Shown here: positions 3,705 to 52,084 of the stretch, one piece after another
How the letters are laid out: each line of letters begins with the position of its first letter
Numbering within the stretch: position 1 is the stretch's first letter
Origin: Candidatus Poribacteria bacterium
GTDB taxonomy: Bacteria > Poribacteria > WGA-4E > JAJDTR01
Assembly: GCA_028820655.1 (NCBI GenBank)
Contig: JAPPIK010000014.1
Coordinates: 1 to 64,000, forward strand
DNA: 64,000 nucleotides
Direction of reading: 5' to 3'
Notes under the pieces: generated by a model
Databases searched by the model: none
The model's input: the letters and a program-made list of their open reading frames with translations, nothing else
Told to the model about the DNA's origin: nothing
Made by a program: the position numbers and the translations under genes

Positions 3705-5903
3705 ATGGAATATGCAGTAGAAATAGGCGGACTCAAGGTTGCCAATTGTCTGTATAAGTTAGTGCAGGACGAGATCGCGCCGGGCACAGGGGTGGACAGC
3801 GATGATTTTTGGTCGGAACTTGGCAAGATTGTCAGAGATTTAGGCGAAAAGAATGGAACATTGCTGGAAAAGCGCGATGTGCTGCAGCGACAGATTGACG
3901 AATGGCATCTGGCGCGAAGAGGTCAGCCGATTGAAATGAACGAGTATAAAGATTTCCTGAGTGAAATTGACTATCTTCTTCCCGAGGGTGAAGGTTTTCG
4001 GGTAACGACAGAAAATGTCGATCCGGAAATATCGACTATTGCGGGGCCTCAATTGGTTGTACCTGTTGACAATGCTCGCTACGCACTAAATGCGGCAAAC
4101 GCGCGTTGGGGTAGCTTATATGACGCCTTGTATGGCACCGATGTGATTTCAGAAGAGGACGGCGCGGAGAAAAGATTGACGTATAACCCTATTCGCGGTG
4201 CGCTTGTAATTGCGGAGACGTCAGCGTTTTTGGATGAGACCATCGCCCTGGAAAATGGCACGTATTCAGAGGTTACACGATTCGAGGTTAATCGCGGGCA
4301 ACTGATCGTATGGCTTGGTAAAGATCGAAAAGTGGGTTTGGCAGATCCGAACAAATTCGCTGGGTTTACGAAGAACGGAGATGAATTAAACAGCATATTG
4401 CTGAGAAACAACGGACTGCATATCGAAATACTATTAGATCCTCAGAGTCCGGTAGGAAAAACTCATCCTGCGGGAATAAAAGACATCCTGTTGGAAGCTG
4501 CTGTTACTACAATTCAAGACTGTGAAGACTCCGTCGCCGCCGTTGATGCGTTTGATAAAGCAAGAGTGTACAGTAATTGGACCGGCATAATGAAGGGAAC
4601 ACTTGAAGCCTCTCTCGTGAAAGGTGGAGAGTCAATAATCCGTCGACTGAATCCCGACAAGACGTTCCTGACGCCCGAAGGAGCTATCCTTACCTTACCG
4701 GGACGAAGTTTGCTACTTATACGCAACGTCGGAATGCATATGTATACCGATGCAGTGGTTACATCAGACGGTGACGAGATTCCGGAAGCCTTCCTTGATG
4801 CCATGGTCACATCGCTGGCCGCCATGCACGACTTGAAGGGAATCGGAAAGTACACCAATAGTCGTGCGGGAAGCATTTACATCGTTAAACCGAAATTTCA
4901 TGGACGAGATGAAGTAGAGTCGACGGTCGAACTGTTTCAGAGGACTGAAGACGCGCTCGGACTTGAAAGAAATACCATTAAAATCGGCGTTATGGACGAG
5001 GAACGCCGCACTACTGTTAATTTGAAAGAAATTCTGCGTGTTGCCAAGGAGCGTGTTGTATTCATCAACACCGGATTCTTGGACCGGACTGGAGATGAGA
5101 TTCACACGAGTATGGAACTCGGACCGGTGCTGCCCAAAATGGAGATTAAGAACCAACCGTGGATGAATGCCTATGAGGATTGGAATGTAGATATCGGAAT
5201 TGAAACCGGGCTTGTTGGTAAGGCTCAAATCGGCAAGGGGATGTGGGCGATGCCAGATTTAATGCGAGATATGTGCGAAACCAAGATTAGTCATCCGCTG
5301 GCAGGAGCCAGCACTGCTTGGGTTCCCTCTCCCACAGCCGCCGTGCTCCATGCGATCCATTACCATAAAGTGAGTGTGGTGAAGAGGCAGAGCGATCTCG
5401 CAAGCAGGGGACGTGCGAATCTGAATCAAATCTTGACTCCACCCATCTTGGACAGAGAATTGTCAGCTTCAGAAATTCAACAGGAGTTGAACAATAATGC
5501 TCAAGGCATTCTGGGGTACGTCGTTCGCTGGGTGGATCAGGGGATCGGTTGTTCCAAGGTGCCCGATATTCACGAAGTCGCATTGATGGAGGATCGGGCG
5601 ACGCTGCGAATATCGAGTCAGCACATCGCCAATTGGCTACATCACCAGATTGTAACCAAGGAGCAAGTTGTTGAGACATTCAAGCACATGGCGGAGGTTG
5701 TTGACGAGCAGAATGCGGCGGATGAAAACTATCGGAACATGGCGCCTGAATTTGACGAGAGCATTGCATTTCAAGCTGCGCTTGACTTGGTTTTTGACGG
5801 CAGAGTAGTATCGAACGGGTATACCGAGCCGGTGCTCCACCGTCGGCGCAGGCAAGTCAAAGCCGCGAGCGGAATTGGCGCTGCCTCGAGTCAACCGGAG
5901 TAG
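3705..5903 (+). CDS. glcB: Malate synthase G
   Basis: 732 residues, the size of the monomeric G-type enzyme (about 720), which condenses glyoxylate and acetyl-CoA to malate. Recognisable blocks include the N-terminal [20 protein letters not shown], the TIM-barrel motifs [18 protein letters not shown] and [17 protein letters not shown], and [20 protein letters not shown]-like sequence before the C-terminal plug domain. ATG 3705 is preceded by AAAGGA at 3693-3698. No isocitrate lyase is encoded in the window, so the glyoxylate may come from glycolate oxidation or from an isocitrate lyase elsewhere. Confidence 0.96.
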
Positions 5904-6096
5904 GCGGCAATCCGTTAAGCCCCCATTTTGAACCTGAAGCACAGTTCGACCGTAGTTATTGCAATGAGTTTTGGGACATCAACGTTAATCGTGTGCGTGA
6001 TGGAACATTGTCTAAATTTAGGGAGAATCGCGGAATAATCGTTAACCGAATGGGATTACTTTACTGAGAATATTCCAGAGCCAAAAGGATGTAAAT

Positions 6097-6582
6097 ATGA
6101 AATGGTCGTGTTTGATTTTGATTTTTGCTAATTTTTCAGTGATGCATGAGGTTATCTGTCTTGCCCAAAATGCGGATGTGGCTAGTGAAGGCGGTACTAT
6201 CAGGGGACATATTGAAGACACGACGGCGCAGCGAAACCCCATTGAGGGTGTTGTAGTAATCGTAAAAGACGTTTCGGGTGACGAATTGACAACGACGACG
6301 GATGAACATGGGGAGTACGAGATTACAAATCTGCGGACGGGCAGATATTTTGTCAGCATCTATAAAGATGGTTATGGAGATAGGGTGGGCAAACCGGTCA
6401 TGGTGGTTGCTGGCGGTGACAGGTATTTTCCGCTGAAGATGACAAAAAAAGACAATATTGATATGTTGTCTCAAAAGATGGGATTTGTCTTCTGGCCATT
6501 GGCGCTATTGACCATTGTCGCCCTCACGTTGATTCTTTTGATTGTCGTGCGTAGACTGAGCAGGAGTGATTCCGTGGAATGA
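6097..6582 (+). CDS. Truncated paralogue of the fused ExbB-like protein
   Basis: 161 residues: a signal peptide (1-24), a carboxypeptidase-regulatory / CnaB-like beta domain (about 32-108), and one membrane helix (about 130-150), ending in RRLSRSDSVE. It matches the first ~145 residues of the ExbB-like protein at 18770-19777 nearly residue for residue; both share SIYKDGYGDRVGKPV, VVAGGDRYFPLKMTKKDNI and QKMGFVFWPLAL. It stops where the MotA/TolQ/ExbB proton-channel domain should begin. ATG 6097 has AAAAGGATG just upstream. It could be a decayed copy or a genuine regulator or membrane anchor; the intact reading frame and clean start favour a product being made. Confidence 0.75.
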   Translation: MKWSCLILIFANFSVMHEVICLAQNADVASEGGTIRGHIEDTTAQRNPIEGVVVIVKDVSGDELTTTTDEHGEYEITNLRTGRYFVSIYKDGYGDRVGKPVMVVAGGDRYFPLKMTKKDNIDMLSQKMGFVFWPLALLTIVALTLILLIVVRRLSRSDSVE

Positions 6583-6612
6583 TCGCGGAGATAGATGTCG
6601 CGTACGTTTCTA

Positions 6613-6641
6613 TTGAATCACAAAGTACATTATGGTATACT
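6613..6641 (+). promoter_or_regulatory. Sigma70-type promoter for the BMC-H/pduL pair
   Basis: TTGAAT at 6613-6618 and TATACT at 6636-6641, separated by 17 bases. It lies about 87 bases before the start of the microcompartment shell gene, in the only space between it and the truncated ExbB-like gene. This implies that the shell gene and pduL are expressed as their own unit. Confidence 0.65.
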
Positions 6642-6727
6642 GCAATTGAATAGAGTCTCCAGCAATCTATTAAACGCAGAACCATTTCAACATTAGATTT
6701 TGGAGTTCGAGGGGAGAATTGTAGAGT

Positions 6728-7057
6728 ATGGCTAGAGATGCATTGGGCTTAGTTGAAACGAGAGGTTTGGTGGGGAGTGTGGAAGCTGCGGACGCGATGG
6801 TAAAAGCCGCAAATGTGCAACTCATTGGATACGAGAAAATTGGCGGCGGATATGTGACCGTAATGGTACGCGGCGATGTTGGGGCGGTAAAAGCAGCGAC
6901 CGATGTCGGAGCGGAAGCGGCCGGAAAAGTCGGAGAGGTTGTTTCAGTGCACGTGATTCCGAGGCCGCATGCGGAAGTTGAATCGATTCTACATTCGATC
7001 ACTGGGAATGGGCCTGTATTGCCCCTCGGTCTAAGTGACGAAGATTCTTCAAGCTGA
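6728..7057 (+). CDS. BMC-H microcompartment shell protein (EutM/PduA/CcmK type)
   Basis: 109 residues with a single BMC domain ([22 protein letters not shown] to [11 protein letters not shown]), the hexagonal tile that forms the facets of protein-bound organelles. The pore-lining loop reads KIGGGYVTV, which suits small polar or charged metabolites. After the BMC domain there is a short tail (about residues 88-109) ending in an acidic [15 protein letters not shown] sits upstream of ATG 6728. It is 18 bp from pduL, so the two are co-transcribed. Only one BMC-H copy is present here; a functional shell would also need a vertex protein (found at 47964) and usually more tiles. Confidence 0.95.
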
Positions 7058-7075
7058 ATCTAGGGCCCATCACGC

Positions 7076-7783
7076 ATGCGCGACCAGGCGTTAATCGAAA
7101 CAATTACCCGCAAGGTGCTAGAGCAGATTGGCGGCGATCAACCGTGCAGCGGTTGCGCATTACGGGTTTGCGATGCGGGCGAGCGAGCCTGCGACGCCGC
7201 GATCTCTCAGAGCAAAATCCCTGTCGGCGTTTCAGCGAGACATGCACATGTTTCCCAGGAGCACTTGGACATTCTTTACGGTAGGGGACATCAATTAACC
7301 ACTCTTGCACCACTATATCAACCAGGCGCGTTTGCGGCACAGGAGACTTTGACCGTAGTTGGACGGAGAATGCGGTCAATTGAAGGCGTGCGAATCTTGG
7401 GACCATCAAGAGACTACACGCAGGTCGAACTTGCTCGTACCGATGCTATTCGATTGGGATTGGATCCACCAATTCGCGATTCAGGCGACCTCGCGGGCTC
7501 AGAACCGATAAGCCTGATTGGACCGGCAGGATCGTTATACCTGAACGAGGGCGCAATATTGGCGACCCGGCACATTCATATGACACCTCAGGTTGCTAAG
7601 TCTTTCGGTGTAGAAGATGGTGATTCACTAAAGGTGCGAATTCCGGGCAATCGTGCTTTAACACTTGAGAACATTCGACCGAAGATTTCTCCCTCCTATG
7701 TTTTGCAGATGCATTTGGACACCGACGATTCAAACGCCGCGGGACTACGCGGCGGCGAAGCTGTCGAGTTGCTGCGAGACTAA
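7076..7783 (+). CDS. pduL: PduL-type phosphate acyltransferase with Cys-rich N-terminus
   Basis: PduL exchanges CoA and phosphate on an acyl group (acyl-CoA to acyl-phosphate), recycling CoA inside microcompartments. Both halves of the PduL fold are present: the first with SARHAHVS (zinc-binding His pair) and GAFAAQETLTVVG, the second with TRHIHMTPQVAKSFGVEDGD. The 235 residues exceed the usual ~210 because of an N-terminal extension. An amphipathic helix (ALIETITRKVLEQIGG, residues 5-20) looks like an encapsulation peptide. It is followed by a linker with Cys24, Cys27, Cys32 and Cys39 (CX2CX4CX6C). ATG 7076 lies 18 bp after the shell gene. Confidence 0.93.
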   Translation: MRDQALIETITRKVLEQIGGDQPCSGCALRVCDAGERACDAAISQSKIPVGVSARHAHVSQEHLDILYGRGHQLTTLAPLYQPGAFAAQETLTVVGRRMRSIEGVRILGPSRDYTQVELARTDAIRLGLDPPIRDSGDLAGSEPISLIGPAGSLYLNEGAILATRHIHMTPQVAKSFGVEDGDSLKVRIPGNRALTLENIRPKISPSYVLQMHLDTDDSNAAGLRGGEAVELLRD

Positions 7784-28803: not shown

Positions 28804-29286
28804 ATGTCACAGGTTGATAATAGCAATTCGGCGAACAATGCGTACAATCCAGTCAAAGGAAAACTCGCGTCAATGCAAGAATGTCTCACACAGTTAGCAC
28901 GGGTGCTGCCCGATAGCAAGCAGGAGTATGTAACGGCTGACCGCATGACGCACTCATTCGTAAAGAGTTGCTTTTCGATGACTTTACAGCGAGTAATTGA
29001 CATAAATCATGTTTTTATTGAGAGCCGAGGAGAGGAACTTCCGCATAACAAATTCCGTTCTTTCTTCCTGATTTGGCAAAGTGGTTCCATCGATGATGAA
29101 ACACTCGACTTTTTTAAACACGCTCTTGATTGCTACAAAAAGCTTTTAGATCCCTACAAAGATTTATCCGATTCCCAATTCTACGAAATCACGCGTGCAC
29201 TATTGAAACACGGTAGGAAATACATTGATCAGATGAATGAATTCTTTATAGGACCAAGTGAAGTCCCCTCCCTGTCTCGTACATAG
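28804..29286 (+). CDS. HepT-like (DUF86-type) helical protein without the RNase motif
   Basis: 160 residues, mostly helical. The core (DRMTHSFVKSCFSMTLQRVI to ALLKHGRKYIDQMNEF) resembles the HEPN/HepT fold of MntA-HepT modules. The catalytic R-X4-6-H motif, usually RN..VH.Y, reads KKLLDPYKDL here and has no Arg-His pair. No nucleotidyltransferase (MntA) partner is adjacent. If the assignment is right, this is a non-catalytic HEPN protein. The start ATG 28804 is well supported by GGAGGGAG upstream. The family call is from pattern only. Confidence 0.5.
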   Translation: MSQVDNSNSANNAYNPVKGKLASMQECLTQLARVLPDSKQEYVTADRMTHSFVKSCFSMTLQRVIDINHVFIESRGEELPHNKFRSFFLIWQSGSIDDETLDFFKHALDCYKKLLDPYKDLSDSQFYEITRALLKHGRKYIDQMNEFFIGPSEVPSLSRT

Positions 29287-47262: not shown

Positions 47263-47963
47263 GATTAGCCTTCTAATGTTGATTTAAGTAACGCCAAATT
47301 CGTTACTCTGCGATATGGGGGATTGATGTTAGAAAGGCTTTTTCTGGCTAGATTCAAACCCAGAATCTGAGGTCGATGAAGATTACCGAGGTGTCTAAAT
47401 ACCATGGGCGACCGGTGATCGATTAATTGGAGTTTCTGGATACTCCGCCAACTCTAATTTATATCATTATGGGAATCCTGCGTCAAGGTAGACAACCGCC
47501 CAGCGATTCAATTGGTCATAACATGATAATTCCCTCCGTGAAGGTGCGATCTTCCTATGATTGCGCAGAGCAAGCTGCGTAAAACGGAGTGAGAAGGGCG
47601 TTCTCCGGTCAAAGTTGGCAGGGTAAACGATTTCAATTCCACGCACTATTCATCTATTCAAACACCGATGTCGGAAGAATTTAGCGACACGTTCCAAGAA
47701 GCCATGCAAACGGTTGTCCAAGCGAAATGAGGTTACAAACGACTCCAGACATAACGAAAAATGAAGCATGCGTGCGAGATGGTTGCCTGACGCAAGAACC
47801 ATCCACTTCATTAAGCGTTCGTGTTTTGGAACGGGCGTGTTCACGGTGTCGACACTGACAAAAAACTTGACTTTTTAATGGCTTGAGTTTACTATAAACA
47901 CCATTGCTGGACGATCCAAAAGATGTTTCTAAGAAGATAATCTAGAACAGAAGGATTCATTGG
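47263..47963. other. Intergenic stretch before the BMC-P operon
   Basis: About 700 bp between the divergent VWA gene and the BMC-P gene. Only the promoter at 47867-47895 is convincing. No tRNA can be folded, and no coding frame has a recognisable domain. Confidence 0.5.
47867..47895 (+). promoter_or_regulatory. Sigma70-type promoter of the BMC-P/two-component operon
   Basis: TTGACT at 47867-47872 and TACTAT at 47890-47895 with a 17-base spacer, about 69 bases before the BMC-P start codon. Confidence 0.65.
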
Positions 47964-48251
47964 ATGACGCTTGGGAAAGTCACAGGAACCATCGTTGCTA
48001 CCAAAAAAGACGCGAAGCTTGTCGGCAGTAAGTTGATGATTATTCAAGACGTAGACTTGGATGGCAATCTACTCAAGACGTACAATGCGGCGGTAGATGC
48101 TGTTGGCGCCGGCATTGGCGAGTTGGTGCTGGTTGCAACGGGAAGTTCGGCGCGACAAACAACGGTTACAAGAGACAAGCCGGTTGATGCCGTCATCATG
48201 GCAATCGTTGATTTCGTTGAAGTGCATGGCGAGATTCGGTATCAGAAGTGA
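47964..48251 (+). CDS. BMC-P microcompartment vertex protein (EutN/CcmL type)
   Basis: 95 residues forming the EutN/CcmL beta-barrel (LGKVTGTIVATKKDAKLVGS, KLMIIQDVDLDGN, VDAVGAGIGELVLVATGSSA, VDAVIMAIVDFVEV). Pentamers of this protein cap the vertices of icosahedral microcompartments. The BMC-H tile and PduL lie about 41 kb upstream; here the gene is followed by a sensor kinase 45 bp later. It is the only vertex gene in the window, so the two loci probably serve the same organelle. Confidence 0.95.
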   Translation: MTLGKVTGTIVATKKDAKLVGSKLMIIQDVDLDGNLLKTYNAAVDAVGAGIGELVLVATGSSARQTTVTRDKPVDAVIMAIVDFVEVHGEIRYQK

Positions 48252-48296: not shown

Positions 48297-50081
48297 GTGA
48301 TACAGGGTGTATCTCCTCAGTCTCCTGATGTGAATCGAGAACTCCCATTCAAGGTTGAACTAATCAAGCAGATTGCTTGGCTTGCGCGGTTGCGTTGGAT
48401 TGCGATCGGTGGAGTATTTGTCACCGTCGGAATTGCATGGTGGTTAGGCGTAATCAATCAACCTCTTCCGCTGTATCTCATCGCCGTTTTCATGGTGCTC
48501 TACAATTTCGAGCCGCAACTATACTCGAAACATGTGAGCAAGAAACGGTTGGTGTCGATCAAACGCCATGCTTGTACACACATTCTGCTTGATTTATTTT
48601 CCTTAACAGCGTTAATTCATTTCAGCGGAGGTGTAGAAAACCCGTTTATATTTTACTTCGTGTTCCACCTTGTTATCGCAAGCATCATTCTGTCCAAAAA
48701 AGTCAGTTACATCCTCGCCACTCTCAACACCGCTCTACTTAGTTCCGTTATTTTCTTGGAATATTTCGGGATCCTACCACATCATCATCTGAACAATTTC
48801 CTTCCGATGACTCTCTGGCAACACCCCATTTATGTGGCGAGTGTGTTGTTCGTCTTCACGAGCACTCTGTTTTTCTCTGTTTATTTGGCTACGACAATAA
48901 CGGATACTGCAAGGTCGCGCGAGGAAGAAACGCGAGATCTAAAGGAAAATCTTGAGGAGAAAGTACTGGAATTGGAAGCTGCGCGGAAGGACGTTCTTTT
49001 TGAGCGAAACAAACTCAAGTCGATAATTGAATGTATGCACGAGGGCGTAGTCTTTGTTGATGAAAGAAATCAAGTAGCGCTCTCGAATAAAGCCGCCCAA
49101 CAGATTCAAGAGGAACAATCTGAATCTGCAGTCGCTACGGTACCCGCTTCGGGATCAGTGGACTCGCAACAACTATCGAATAATTACAATCTTCTGTCAC
49201 AGATGGTGCGTGATTTGTCGGAAGGTAGTGAAATAATTGAGCAAAAGAGTGTTCGGATAAAGGACAGGCATTTTGAGAACACCGTCGCAGCGGTCCGCGA
49301 CGCTGAAGAAGGGCATTTGGGAACCGTGCTGGTGTCGCGTGATGTGACAGATCGAAAACGGATGGAACAACAGTTAATCTTCTCTGAAAAAATGGCGGCA
49401 ATTGGTGAAGTTGCCGCAGGCGTTGCACACGAGATAAATAACCCGCTTGATGGACTGATAAACTGCATTCTTCGAATCAAGCGAGATCCGGAAAATACCC
49501 ACCAAACGAAAGAGTATTTGGACCTCATGGAAGAAGCCTTGCGACGTATTGAGTCAACGGTCACACAGCTTCTGGACTTCTCGCGACACCATGAACTTAG
49601 TCTAGCCTCAATCTCATTGAATGAAGTTGTGGATGAAGTCACCGGACTGATTGAATATAGCGCCCAAGAAAAAGGAATCAAAATTGAAAAGCGATTCGAT
49701 TCAGATCTCGCAACAATCCTCGGGGACAAACATTTGCTTGAACAGGTTGTACTGAATCTGGCATTAAATGCTGTTGCAGCGATGCCTGATGGAGGCACGC
49801 TAATTTTAAAAACAGGCCCCGTAGAACCCGATGTGTTCGAGAGGGCGCAAATGGTCTACGTGCGGGTTACAGATACGGGAATCGGTATTCCCCATGCAAT
49901 TCAGGATCGGATTTTCGACCCGTTTTATACCACAAAAATATCAGAAAAAGGAACGGGGCTTGGCCTTTCTGTGTCTGATAGGATTGTAAGGCAGCACGAA
50001 GGAACTCTTGAATTCGAGAGCAAACTTGGTCAAGGTTCGACCTTTAAGGTGAACTTGCCAGTCGCGACAGAGCGGGTTTGA
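48297..50081 (+). CDS. Membrane sensor histidine kinase with PAS domain
   Basis: 594 residues from GTG 48297. Six membrane helices (about 35-200) form an integral sensor without a large periplasmic loop. A coiled coil (about 205-240) and a PAS-like domain (about 240-350) follow. HisKA has its phosphate acceptor at His378 (GVAHEINNPLDG). HATPase_c has the N box NLALNAVAAMPDGG, G1 VTDTGIGIP and G2 KGTGLGLSVSDRIV. It belongs to the NtrB/AtoS group that pairs with NtrC-like regulators, and the next gene (4-bp gap, stop overlapping an alternative start) is its regulator. The signal is unknown. Confidence 0.95.
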   Translation: MIQGVSPQSPDVNRELPFKVELIKQIAWLARLRWIAIGGVFVTVGIAWWLGVINQPLPLYLIAVFMVLYNFEPQLYSKHVSKKRLVSIKRHACTHILLDLFSLTALIHFSGGVENPFIFYFVFHLVIASIILSKKVSYILATLNTALLSSVIFLEYFGILPHHHLNNFLPMTLWQHPIYVASVLFVFTSTLFFSVYLATTITDTARSREEETRDLKENLEEKVLELEAARKDVLFERNKLKSIIECMHEGVVFVDERNQVALSNKAAQQIQEEQSESAVATVPASGSVDSQQLSNNYNLLSQMVRDLSEGSEIIEQKSVRIKDRHFENTVAAVRDAEEGHLGTVLVSRDVTDRKRMEQQLIFSEKMAAIGEVAAGVAHEINNPLDGLINCILRIKRDPENTHQTKEYLDLMEEALRRIESTVTQLLDFSRHHELSLASISLNEVVDEVTGLIEYSAQEKGIKIEKRFDSDLATILGDKHLLEQVVLNLALNAVAAMPDGGTLILKTGPVEPDVFERAQMVYVRVTDTGIGIPHAIQDRIFDPFYTTKISEKGTGLGLSVSDRIVRQHEGTLEFESKLGQGSTFKVNLPVATERV

Positions 50082-50083
50082 AC

Positions 50084-51445
50084 ATGAAGGTACTTGTTGT
50101 CGACGACGAAAAAATTAAACGGATTACACTCCGAGATGACCTTCGGGAAGCGAACTACGACGCAATCGCGGTCGAATCTCCGGCTACCGGACTGCAGTTG
50201 CTGGAAAATGAGCATTTTGACGTTCTGGTATCTGACTTGCGAATGCCTCGAATGCACGGGATCGATTTTCTAAAGCGAGTTAAGAAAGAGCAACCGCATG
50301 TAACGGTTATAATTATGACCGCCTATGCCACGGTCGAAACCGCAGTCGAAGCCATGAAATTCGGCGCCCACAACTACATCAAGAAGCCGTTTTCCAGCGA
50401 AGAACTGGTTGCCATGCTGGACAAGCTGAAGAGACTGCATCAAGAGAGCGGTCAAGCAGCGAGCGGGGACATCATGCTGTCTTCCAACAACACTGGCAGA
50501 CTTACACCGCATCAGAATATCGTTGGAAGGAGTCAGCAGATTCAAGAGGTTCTAGTCGCCCTCGACACCGTGGCTGAATCCAATAGCAATGTATTGATAT
50601 ACGGTGAACGGGGCGTCGGTAAAGCGTTGCTCGCAAAGTCAATTCATTCGAATAGCCGGCGCAGATACCAGCCCTATGTGCGTGTAAACTGCTCAAAGCA
50701 ATCGTCCGCCGCGTTGCACGATGACATGTTTGGGAACGAAATGATCGCCGACGGTCGGCAGCCTGGCAGACTTGAACTCTCTCATGGCGGCACTCTCTTT
50801 TTGGCTGATATAGAAAATTTGCCGTACGAGATACAGGTCAAGCTTCTTCAGGTGCTTGAAGATGGAGAATTTGTGAATAATGAATGCACAGATAGCACCG
50901 GATTGGACGTACGCATGATCGCCGCAACTACGGTGAATCTTCGGGAGAAAGTCAGAATAGGCGAATTCCGAGAAGATCTGTACTATCGATTAAATGTCGT
51001 CCCTCTATTTTTGCCGCCCCTCCGGGAGCGAATGGAAGACATATCGCTTCTTATCAGTCATTTCGTAGAATTATTCTCCCCCCGTCGAGATACTTATTTA
51101 GTTCCGGAGGCTATCGATTTACTCGCAGCGTATACATGGCCCGGAAATGTAAGCGAACTCGAAAATCTAATCGAACGTCTTGTTACGATGGGCGGTGGCC
51201 GGCCGATCACTGTAGAAGATATTCCAATTGAGCTGAAAGTTCCCACTCCCGTCAATATAGATGACACCTTGTCCGGAACCTCGTTTCGTGAGATTGTGCA
51301 GTCGACGGAACGCGAGCTGATTGCTTGGGCGATGAGGAAAACCAAGGGGAACAAGACTCAATCAGCGAAGCTGCTCAACATGAAGCCTTCCACCTTTCGA
51401 GATGCGCTTGCCAAATATATCGATGAAATCGGGTGGGAAGCATGA
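50084..51445 (+). CDS. NtrC-family response regulator lacking the sigma54 contact motif
   Basis: 453 residues: receiver (1-120, acceptor Asp51 in VLVSDLRMP, DDE acidic pocket, Thr in IIMTAY, Lys in IKKPF), AAA+ domain (about 145-375), and a Fis-type HTH (about 410-450, TKGNKTQSAKLLNMKPSTFRDAL). Walker A reads GERGVGKALLAK. The GAFTGA loop that contacts sigma54 is missing: where family members have HEKGAFTGA there is GNEMIADGRQPGR. Walker B reads GGTLFLADIENL, with Ala-Asp in place of Asp-Glu. Arg fingers (FREDLYYRLNV) remain. It probably acts as a DNA-binding regulator without sigma54 activation. ATG 50084 lies two bases after the kinase stop. Confidence 0.92.
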   Translation: MKVLVVDDEKIKRITLRDDLREANYDAIAVESPATGLQLLENEHFDVLVSDLRMPRMHGIDFLKRVKKEQPHVTVIIMTAYATVETAVEAMKFGAHNYIKKPFSSEELVAMLDKLKRLHQESGQAASGDIMLSSNNTGRLTPHQNIVGRSQQIQEVLVALDTVAESNSNVLIYGERGVGKALLAKSIHSNSRRRYQPYVRVNCSKQSSAALHDDMFGNEMIADGRQPGRLELSHGGTLFLADIENLPYEIQVKLLQVLEDGEFVNNECTDSTGLDVRMIAATTVNLREKVRIGEFREDLYYRLNVVPLFLPPLRERMEDISLLISHFVELFSPRRDTYLVPEAIDLLAAYTWPGNVSELENLIERLVTMGGGRPITVEDIPIELKVPTPVNIDDTLSGTSFREIVQSTERELIAWAMRKTKGNKTQSAKLLNMKPSTFRDALAKYIDEIGWEA

Positions 51446-51487
51446 GTCTACGAATCGCGCTGCGCCATATTTCGCGTGCACCAGGGG

Positions 51488-52084
51488 ATGTCCGTGACAG
51501 TTTCTAACTGCAGCGAATATATTACAGGGGAGGAGAGACGTCAACGAATTCGCGAAGAAGCAATCCGTAGACGTGACAGAATCCCTCCGAAGGTCCGTAG
51601 TGAGTCAAGCAGGACCATTTGCACAAGGGTGATTGACTTCATTGAGGCGCGCGCAATAAATGCGGTAATGCTCTACCTTAACATGCGGAGCGAAGTTGAA
51701 ACGCGCGATCTGCTTGTTTATTTGTTGCGCACCAATAAGGTTACTCTAGCGCCGGCGATAGAGGCTAAGCGCCTTGTCCCTCGACGCATCGCTGATGCCG
51801 GTACGCAGTTTGTGCGCCATCGTTACGGAATGTACCAGCCAAACCAAGATGTTTGCCCCGAGTTCCCTCTAAACCAAATCGAACTGATTATTGTTCCCGG
51901 AGTTGCCTTCGATTTAAAAAAGTATCGTATCGGATATGGAGGTGGATATTATGATCGATTCCTTCCGAATTGTCCGAATGCCATTTCGATGGGATTGGCG
52001 TTCAAGGAACAGGTGATTCAGGACACAATGCCGCGGTCATGGGATGTGGCATTGCACAATATCATTTCCGAGAAATGTGATTGA
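51488..52084 (+). CDS. 5-formyltetrahydrofolate cyclo-ligase
   Basis: About 198 residues. It converts 5-formyl-THF to 5,10-methenyl-THF with ATP. Signatures: the N-terminal RIREEAIRRRDRIPPKVR basic helix, PAIEAKRLVPRRI, and the C-terminal GYGGGYYDRFLPN that closes the ATP site. The start is not certain: ATG 51488 or the in-frame GTG 51476; no good ribosome-binding site marks either. It lies 42 bp after the response regulator and may be read through from it. Confidence 0.9.
   Translation: MSVTVSNCSEYITGEERRQRIREEAIRRRDRIPPKVRSESSRTICTRVIDFIEARAINAVMLYLNMRSEVETRDLLVYLLRTNKVTLAPAIEAKRLVPRRIADAGTQFVRHRYGMYQPNQDVCPEFPLNQIELIIVPGVAFDLKKYRIGYGGGYYDRFLPNCPNAISMGLAFKEQVIQDTMPRSWDVALHNIISEKCD

Follow-up and report, generated by a model that had tools for sequence, protein, structure and literature searches.

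An NtrC-type response regulator family of Poribacteria without GAFTGA and with altered ATPase motifs, encoded beside a microcompartment vertex gene

Regulators of the bEBP family in general activate sigma54, and the names and roles of their motifs are part of general bEBP knowledge. These names are used here as in PMC7175178. A few family members have lost the GAFTGA motif. NtrC of R. capsulatus carries a deletion in the L1 loop of its AAA+ domain that removes GAFTGA, and it acts with sigma70 RNA polymerase in a manner that needs ATP binding and not hydrolysis (cited in PMC10274813). NtrC of Caulobacter has lost 8 residues of L1 including GAFTGA and is described as both activator and repressor at sigma70 promoters (PMC10274813, PMC12421884). 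Its Walker A and B motifs are conserved and both are required for growth on ammonium (PMC10274813), and HTH mutants have linked this GAFTGA-less protein to sigma54-dependent transcripts (PMC12421884). According to PMC10274813, VpsR of Vibrio cholerae, also a bEBP without GAFTGA, works at sigma70 promoters without a need for ATP, uses c-di-GMP and needs no phosphorylation. The NtrC-type regulators without GAFTGA that we found described so far belong to Proteobacteria (PMC10274813).

The regulator studied here is encoded in a 64,000-nucleotide stretch of a Candidatus Poribacteria genome, referred to below as the window, within a cassette of the following features:

47866..47896, + strand: TTGACT-N17-TACTAT, a putative sigma70 promoter in front of EutN that is conserved among related genomes
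47964..48251, + strand: EutN/CcmL-type BMC vertex gene, first in the cassette (domain match, synteny)
48297..50081, + strand: sensor histidine kinase with a PilS-like membrane region (25 orthologues conserve the HisKA and HATPase boxes)
50084..51445, + strand: response regulator gene with receiver, degenerate AAA+ core, lid and Fis-type HTH (open reading frame of 453 aa, Pfam)
51476..52084, + strand: 5-formyltetrahydrofolate cyclo-ligase family gene, last of the conserved cassette (domain match, synteny)

Pfam places Response_reg at residues 3-112 of the regulator, Sigma54_activat at 146-308, the AAA lid at 314-386 and HTH_8 at 408-445, and the match to PF00158 (E 3e-45) indicates that the AAA+ sigma54-activation fold is present. 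The individual motifs were positioned by alignment to bEBP motifs:

50084..50419, + strand: receiver domain with D7, D8, D51, T79 and K101, invariant in 28/28 orthologues
50603..50623, + strand: Walker A GERGVGK (K180), P-loop Lys in 27/28 orthologues
50729..50770, + strand: FGNEMIADGRQPGR, shortened L1 region at the GAFTGA position (alignment with orthologues and paralogues)
50789..50812, + strand: Walker B GTLFLADI, with A241-D242 in place of Asp-Glu (sequence, alignment)
50930..50932, + strand: sensor I Asn position, occupied by T283 (Asn in 0/28 orthologues)
50969..50989, + strand: Arg-finger positions R296 and R302, kept in the window regulator and lost in f2 orthologues
51152..51154, + strand: sensor II Arg position, occupied by S357 in GNVSELEN (Arg in 9/28 orthologues)
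51296..51418, + strand: Fis-type HTH (residues 405-445), with pairwise identity averaging 84% over the family

The original prediction, made from the sequence, had described an NtrC-like regulator with intact receiver and Fis-type HTH, without GAFTGA and with Ala-Asp in Walker B, and each of these features was recovered, the receiver marker residues being present throughout the orthologues. Where canonical paralogues read FGHExGAFTGAxxxxxGK, the aligned regulator has FGNEMIADGRQPGR and is 4 residues shorter, with GNEMIADGRQPGR replacing GAFTGA itself. A working GAFTGA elsewhere in the loop had been named as one finding that could overturn the prediction; the motif is absent from the entire 453-aa sequence. 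The list of losses was incomplete, as the sensor I Asn and the sensor II Arg are, judged by alignment, gone as well. All 15 aligned paralogues of the same genome retain Asp-Glu, the sensor I Asn and the sensor II Arg (17 PF00158 matches in total: the window gene, these 15 and one weak partial match that was left out). Homology supports the predicted failure to activate sigma54 in the normal way, given that GAFTGA is absent family-wide, and likewise the predicted poor hydrolysis of ATP, given the family-wide alteration of Walker B. The effect of Caulobacter NtrC on sigma54 transcripts (PMC12421884) can serve as a caution against too strong a version of the former. The suggested look-up of rpoN found the gene in the genome.

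A phylum-wide search of 84 genomes (E <= 1e-95) recovered an orthologue in 29 of them: f1 2/2, f4 9/9, genus g2 17/18 and genus g6 1/38, which amounts to 28 of the 29 genomes of f1, f4 and g2. No orthologue was found at this threshold in g10 (0/2), f3 (0/3) or other orders (0/12), and all named relatives at 57-79% identity to the regulator were Candidatus Poribacteria. Missing in 37 of the 38 g6 genomes, the regulator is dispensable. Among the 28 distinct orthologues that were aligned, none has GAFTGA and none an intact Walker B Asp-Glu. Compared with canonical paralogues, the loop lacks 4 to about 11 residues and shows no conservation; Walker B reads FIAN in 16 orthologues, FLKD in 5, FLAD in 2, FLDD in 2, and FLAE, FLQD and CLKN in one each. 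Three further orthologues, one of them identical to L053 over its first 400 residues, also lack GAFTGA and follow the g2 pattern. Since the motif is absent from all 28 orthologues and these three sequences, its loss is not due to chance or sequencing error; as judged from the alignments, the motif losses are a fixed trait of the whole orthologous family. Residual hydrolysis seems possible in the two FLDD orthologues, which keep the first Walker B Asp, and in the FLAE orthologue, which keeps the Glu.

Groups differ in what else was lost: the Arg fingers and the sensor II Arg are mostly kept in f4, sensor II is lost in f1, and the Arg fingers are lost in f2. The original prediction was right that the window regulator retains the Walker A Lys and both Arg fingers (K180, R296, R302). 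Its suggestion of ATP-dependent oligomerisation is weakened, however, by the family as a whole, in which the P-loop Lys occurs in 27/28 orthologues but Arg in only 10/28 at the first finger position and 11/28 at the second; this frequency argues that the family does not need trans-acting Arg-finger chemistry. The AAA columns constant in 27 or 28 of the 28 orthologues include G174, E175, G177, G179 and K180 of the P-loop and the switch Asn N202, and the LPPLRER..D stretch leading into the lid is conserved too. Their constancy in an otherwise loosened core suggests nucleotide binding without hydrolysis. The orthologue of G024 has diverged (48%), has lost the P-loop Lys and stands without a kinase.

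The domains of the regulator were compared with those of two canonical control families, searched in 26 of the 29 known regulator-bearing genomes, in which Walker B is FLDE in 25/25 and 23/23 rows. Mean identities of receiver, AAA core, lid and HTH were.849,.526,.688 and.837 in the regulator family (26 rows), against.685,.791,.624 and.781 (25 rows) and.702,.817,.675 and.700 (23 rows) in the controls. The AAA core is thus the best conserved domain of both control families and the worst conserved of the regulator family, whose receiver and HTH exceed those of both controls. Pooled dN/dS values in the same domain order were.017,.125,.092 and.025 for the regulator, and.088,.039,.080 and.037 and.096,.045,.090 and.056 for the controls, so that the AAA core is about three times looser in the regulator (0.125 vs 0.039 and 0.045). 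These values were pooled from 11 pairs of closely related genomes, or 10 in the case of the second control; the pairs are not all independent, G053 entering twice, and the method was Nei-Gojobori counting in our own implementation. Purifying selection maintains the P-loop, the lid, the phospho-acceptor receiver and the HTH. Identity and dN/dS together therefore indicate that the regulator is maintained and that constraint has shifted away from the motor, towards the switch and the DNA-reading domain.

An AlphaFold2 model built from 14 sequences (mean pLDDT 78) has the expected receiver and AAA+ folds. Its nearest solved chains are NtrC4, NtrX, NtrC1 and FleQ, and PspF and VpsR are also among the matches. 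NtrC1, NtrC4, PspF and FleQ, top matches by sequence as well as structure, share the AAA+ clade and fold of the regulator and, as canonical bEBPs, carry the sigma54 motor residues. These residues of canonical bEBPs, as seen in the paralogues of the same genome, are altered in the regulator. The VpsR structure 7v2b aligned over 360 residues (Z 25.1, 22.0 A rmsd over several domains), and VpsR matched the regulator by sequence at E 2.9e-39. In a tree, the 13 included orthologues make up one side of a branch with support of 100/100, their sister group being without resolution. The score against the NtrC equivalog TIGR01818 (342.6 bits) is below the cut-off of 558.6, and by this test the protein is not an NtrC orthologue.

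With its NtrC-type domain order and an L1 deletion that removes GAFTGA, the regulator on this criterion fits the GAFTGA-less class, and it is best read, by analogy, as a variant of the class known from R. capsulatus NtrC, Caulobacter NtrC and VpsR. Like R. capsulatus NtrC, it is a response regulator with an AAA+ L1 deletion. Unlike in that protein, Walker B and both sensors are altered and the neighbours are BMC vertex and folate genes. The family resembles R. capsulatus NtrC in the parts kept and exceeds it in the parts lost. Caulobacter NtrC shares the L1 deletion but retains the Walker B motif that is lost here, whereas VpsR differs in its use of c-di-GMP and its independence of phosphorylation. 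The marker residues in all 28 receiver rows and an intact adjacent kinase at 25 of 26 loci identify the pair as a two-component system. In a literature search on Poribacteria microcompartments, sigma-54 and GAFTGA-less bEBPs, with subscription journals mostly outside it, the family did not appear.

The cassette itself is well conserved. At 26 regulator loci, the next gene upstream is the kinase in 25; EutN/CcmL lies upstream in 24 and the 5-formyl-THF cyclo-ligase downstream in 23. The exceptions are G024 without a kinase, G004, whose EutN sits on a separate contig, L051 and L102, which reach contig ends, and G052, where another gene follows the regulator. The H, N, G1 and G2 boxes of the kinase are conserved in 25 rows, small changes aside. 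We also observed that the kinases of L097, L102 and L108 (G015, G020, G052) are about 120 residues shorter, apparently without a PAS region. Twelve loci from regulator-less genomes were compared. Nine belong to g6 and g10, which together have 39 genomes of this kind; in these nine the cyclo-ligase comes immediately after EutN, and kinase and regulator are absent. The other three are from f3, and no cyclo-ligase was seen near EutN there.

The original prediction had called the regulator BMC-linked and regarded this as unusual. The link stands through EutN/CcmL at 24 of 26 loci, but it is limited to one vertex gene, BMC-H and PduL (window 6728-7783) being about 43 kb away from the cassette. Because of this distance, the cassette EutN resembles a satellite-like shell locus as defined in PMC4207490. 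The notion that such a regulator is unusual is tempered by the description of scattered poribacterial shell genes with two-component genes near three/four BMC groups (Kamke et al. 2014, PMC3909097). The BMC-group section of that study mentions neither GAFTGA nor ATPase motifs. Malate synthase G, the BMC-H shell protein and the PduL-type phosphotransacylase are clustered at window 3705-7783. A second kinase-regulator pair of the same genome (G000:C15:380659-382113; L124, L130) adjoins two EutN genes and has an intact ATPase; in 14 of 25 orthologues the loop of its regulator is GAFTDA or GAYTDA. A HepT-like ribonuclease family gene, possibly part of a toxin-antitoxin system, lies at window 28804-29286.

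The TTGACT-N17-TACTAT arrangement upstream of EutN (hexamers and spacer at window 47867-47895) also occurs in G001 and six f4 genomes, while several g2 genomes have a weaker-matching TTGACT element there and others none. With up to 3 mismatches allowed, the window contains a single copy of the 31-bp element. Scanning one genome for promoters gave no excess over shuffles (9 found vs 6.7 +/- 2.9 expected), so that support for the promoter comes solely from conservation between genomes. This pattern is good evidence that the f1 and f4 cassettes are transcribed with sigma70. It points only weakly to an action of the regulator at the promoter before EutN: similar elements precede EutN in the regulator-less f3 genomes and the unlinked EutN of G004, and the promoter need therefore not be the regulator's target. 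A strict -24/-12 sigma54 element was found in none of 36 valid EutN upstream regions (23 of regulator loci and 13 others; L101 was dropped as its EutN is cut at a contig end), and a looser TGGC-N8-TGC pattern matched once each in L095 and L113. A search for operators, as dyads and 8-mers in the 300 bp upstream of EutN (22 regulator-bearing vs 13 other regions), found no dyad common to all three clades. The 8-mers common to most regions were pieces of the -35/-10 region, and the remaining ones occurred in few genomes. In L115 of the f3 genome G003, about 111 bases ahead of EutN, the -35 to -10 region falls within a long inverted repeat, TTGACAAATAT ... ATATTTGTCA, possibly the operator of another regulator.

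Taken together, we consider it probable, with some reservation, that the protein is a kinase-switched, ATP-binding and non-hydrolysing DNA-binding regulator at sigma70 promoters, of NtrC/bEBP descent, in which the sigma54 motor has been abandoned. The kinase would phosphorylate D51, and phosphorylation, probably together with bound and unhydrolysed ATP, would set the dimer or oligomer state. The regulator would then act on sigma70-type promoters, most likely including the one before EutN, to activate or repress them through direct contact or occlusion. Such autoregulation of the cassette is a guess, given that the operator search gave none. ATP binding is suggested by the P-loop, and loss of the sensor II Arg could weaken it. 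A more tentative reading, to which we give a modest chance, is that the AAA+ core is a ligand-sensing pseudo-ATPase that reads ATP/ADP or another nucleotide as a second input, since P-loop, N202 and lid were kept while the hydrolysis residues are gone. If true, kinase signal and nucleotide state would jointly set sigma70 transcription of BMC vertex and folate genes in sponge symbionts.

Several alternatives to a non-hydrolysing sigma70 regulator were weighed. The protein might be an anti-activator that damps sigma54 transcription, either by joining intact sigma54 activators of the same cell in mixed rings or by competing with them for binding sites. For this speak rpoN and the 15 other aligned bEBPs of the genome, the two Arg fingers, P-loop and lid of the window regulator, and the altered sigma54-dependent transcripts of Caulobacter NtrC HTH mutants (PMC12421884). 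We nevertheless regard it as unlikely, because the Arg fingers are gone in f2, the AAA core that bears the interface drifts fast, and the strong constraint on the HTH points to DNA sites of its own. It is still less probable that the regulator is a GAFTGA-less activator that continues to hydrolyse ATP, as proposed for Caulobacter NtrC: the dependence of that protein on both Walker motifs on ammonium (PMC10274813) and the P-loop and Arg fingers of the window regulator would fit, but its Walker B acids and both sensors are altered and Asp-Glu occurs in no orthologue.

Sigma54 activation via a different loop or surface would agree with the presence of rpoN and with the activity of the wider bEBP family (PMC7175178). 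Against a shortened and unconserved loop, the loss of catalytic residues and the lack of a strict sigma54 promoter in all 36 EutN upstream regions, we give this explanation very little credence. An equally slim chance is left to a decaying gene heading for loss. Its absence from g10 and most of g6 and the diverged, kinase-less G024 copy without the P-loop Lys would be expected of decay, yet the frames are open throughout, receiver and HTH are tighter than in the controls, and the gene is present in nearly all f1, f4 and g2 genomes. Decay is already contradicted by the selection data, G024 perhaps excepted, and a pseudogene was rejected as dN/dS is well below 1 in every domain.

This would be a family of Poribacteria, far from Proteobacteria, whose losses go beyond GAFTGA to include Walker B and both sensors. 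The intermediates between families form a natural series in which to ask what a bEBP must retain after it has ceased to act on sigma54, and why its P-loop persists longer than hydrolysis. The locus is also a tangible starting point for learning how microcompartment genes of Poribacteria are regulated.

The same genome encodes a 457-aa RpoN-like protein (G000:C55:63441-64811, L019) with a Pfam match to the sigma54 DNA-binding domain only; activator-interacting and core-binding domains were not found in it at E 0.001. Orthologues are present, alongside normal rpoN, in f1, 8/9 f4 genomes (one partial), G069 and G058 (partial). It was considered here because a GAFTGA-less activator might pair with an RpoN-like protein without an activator-interacting domain, and this coupling was rejected, as no strong match was obtained in f2, home of most regulator orthologues. 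A further regulator of the genome (G000:C22:31850-32335, L011) is also without GAFTGA, reading FGIGKRVATAVDQRPGK, and keeps Asp-Glu, the sensor I Asn and the sensor II Arg. Finally, in L083 of Alicyclobacillus mengziensis Walker B, sensors, Arg fingers and GAFTGA are altered while the P-loop Lys is kept, apparently a separate case, so that such erosion occurs elsewhere.
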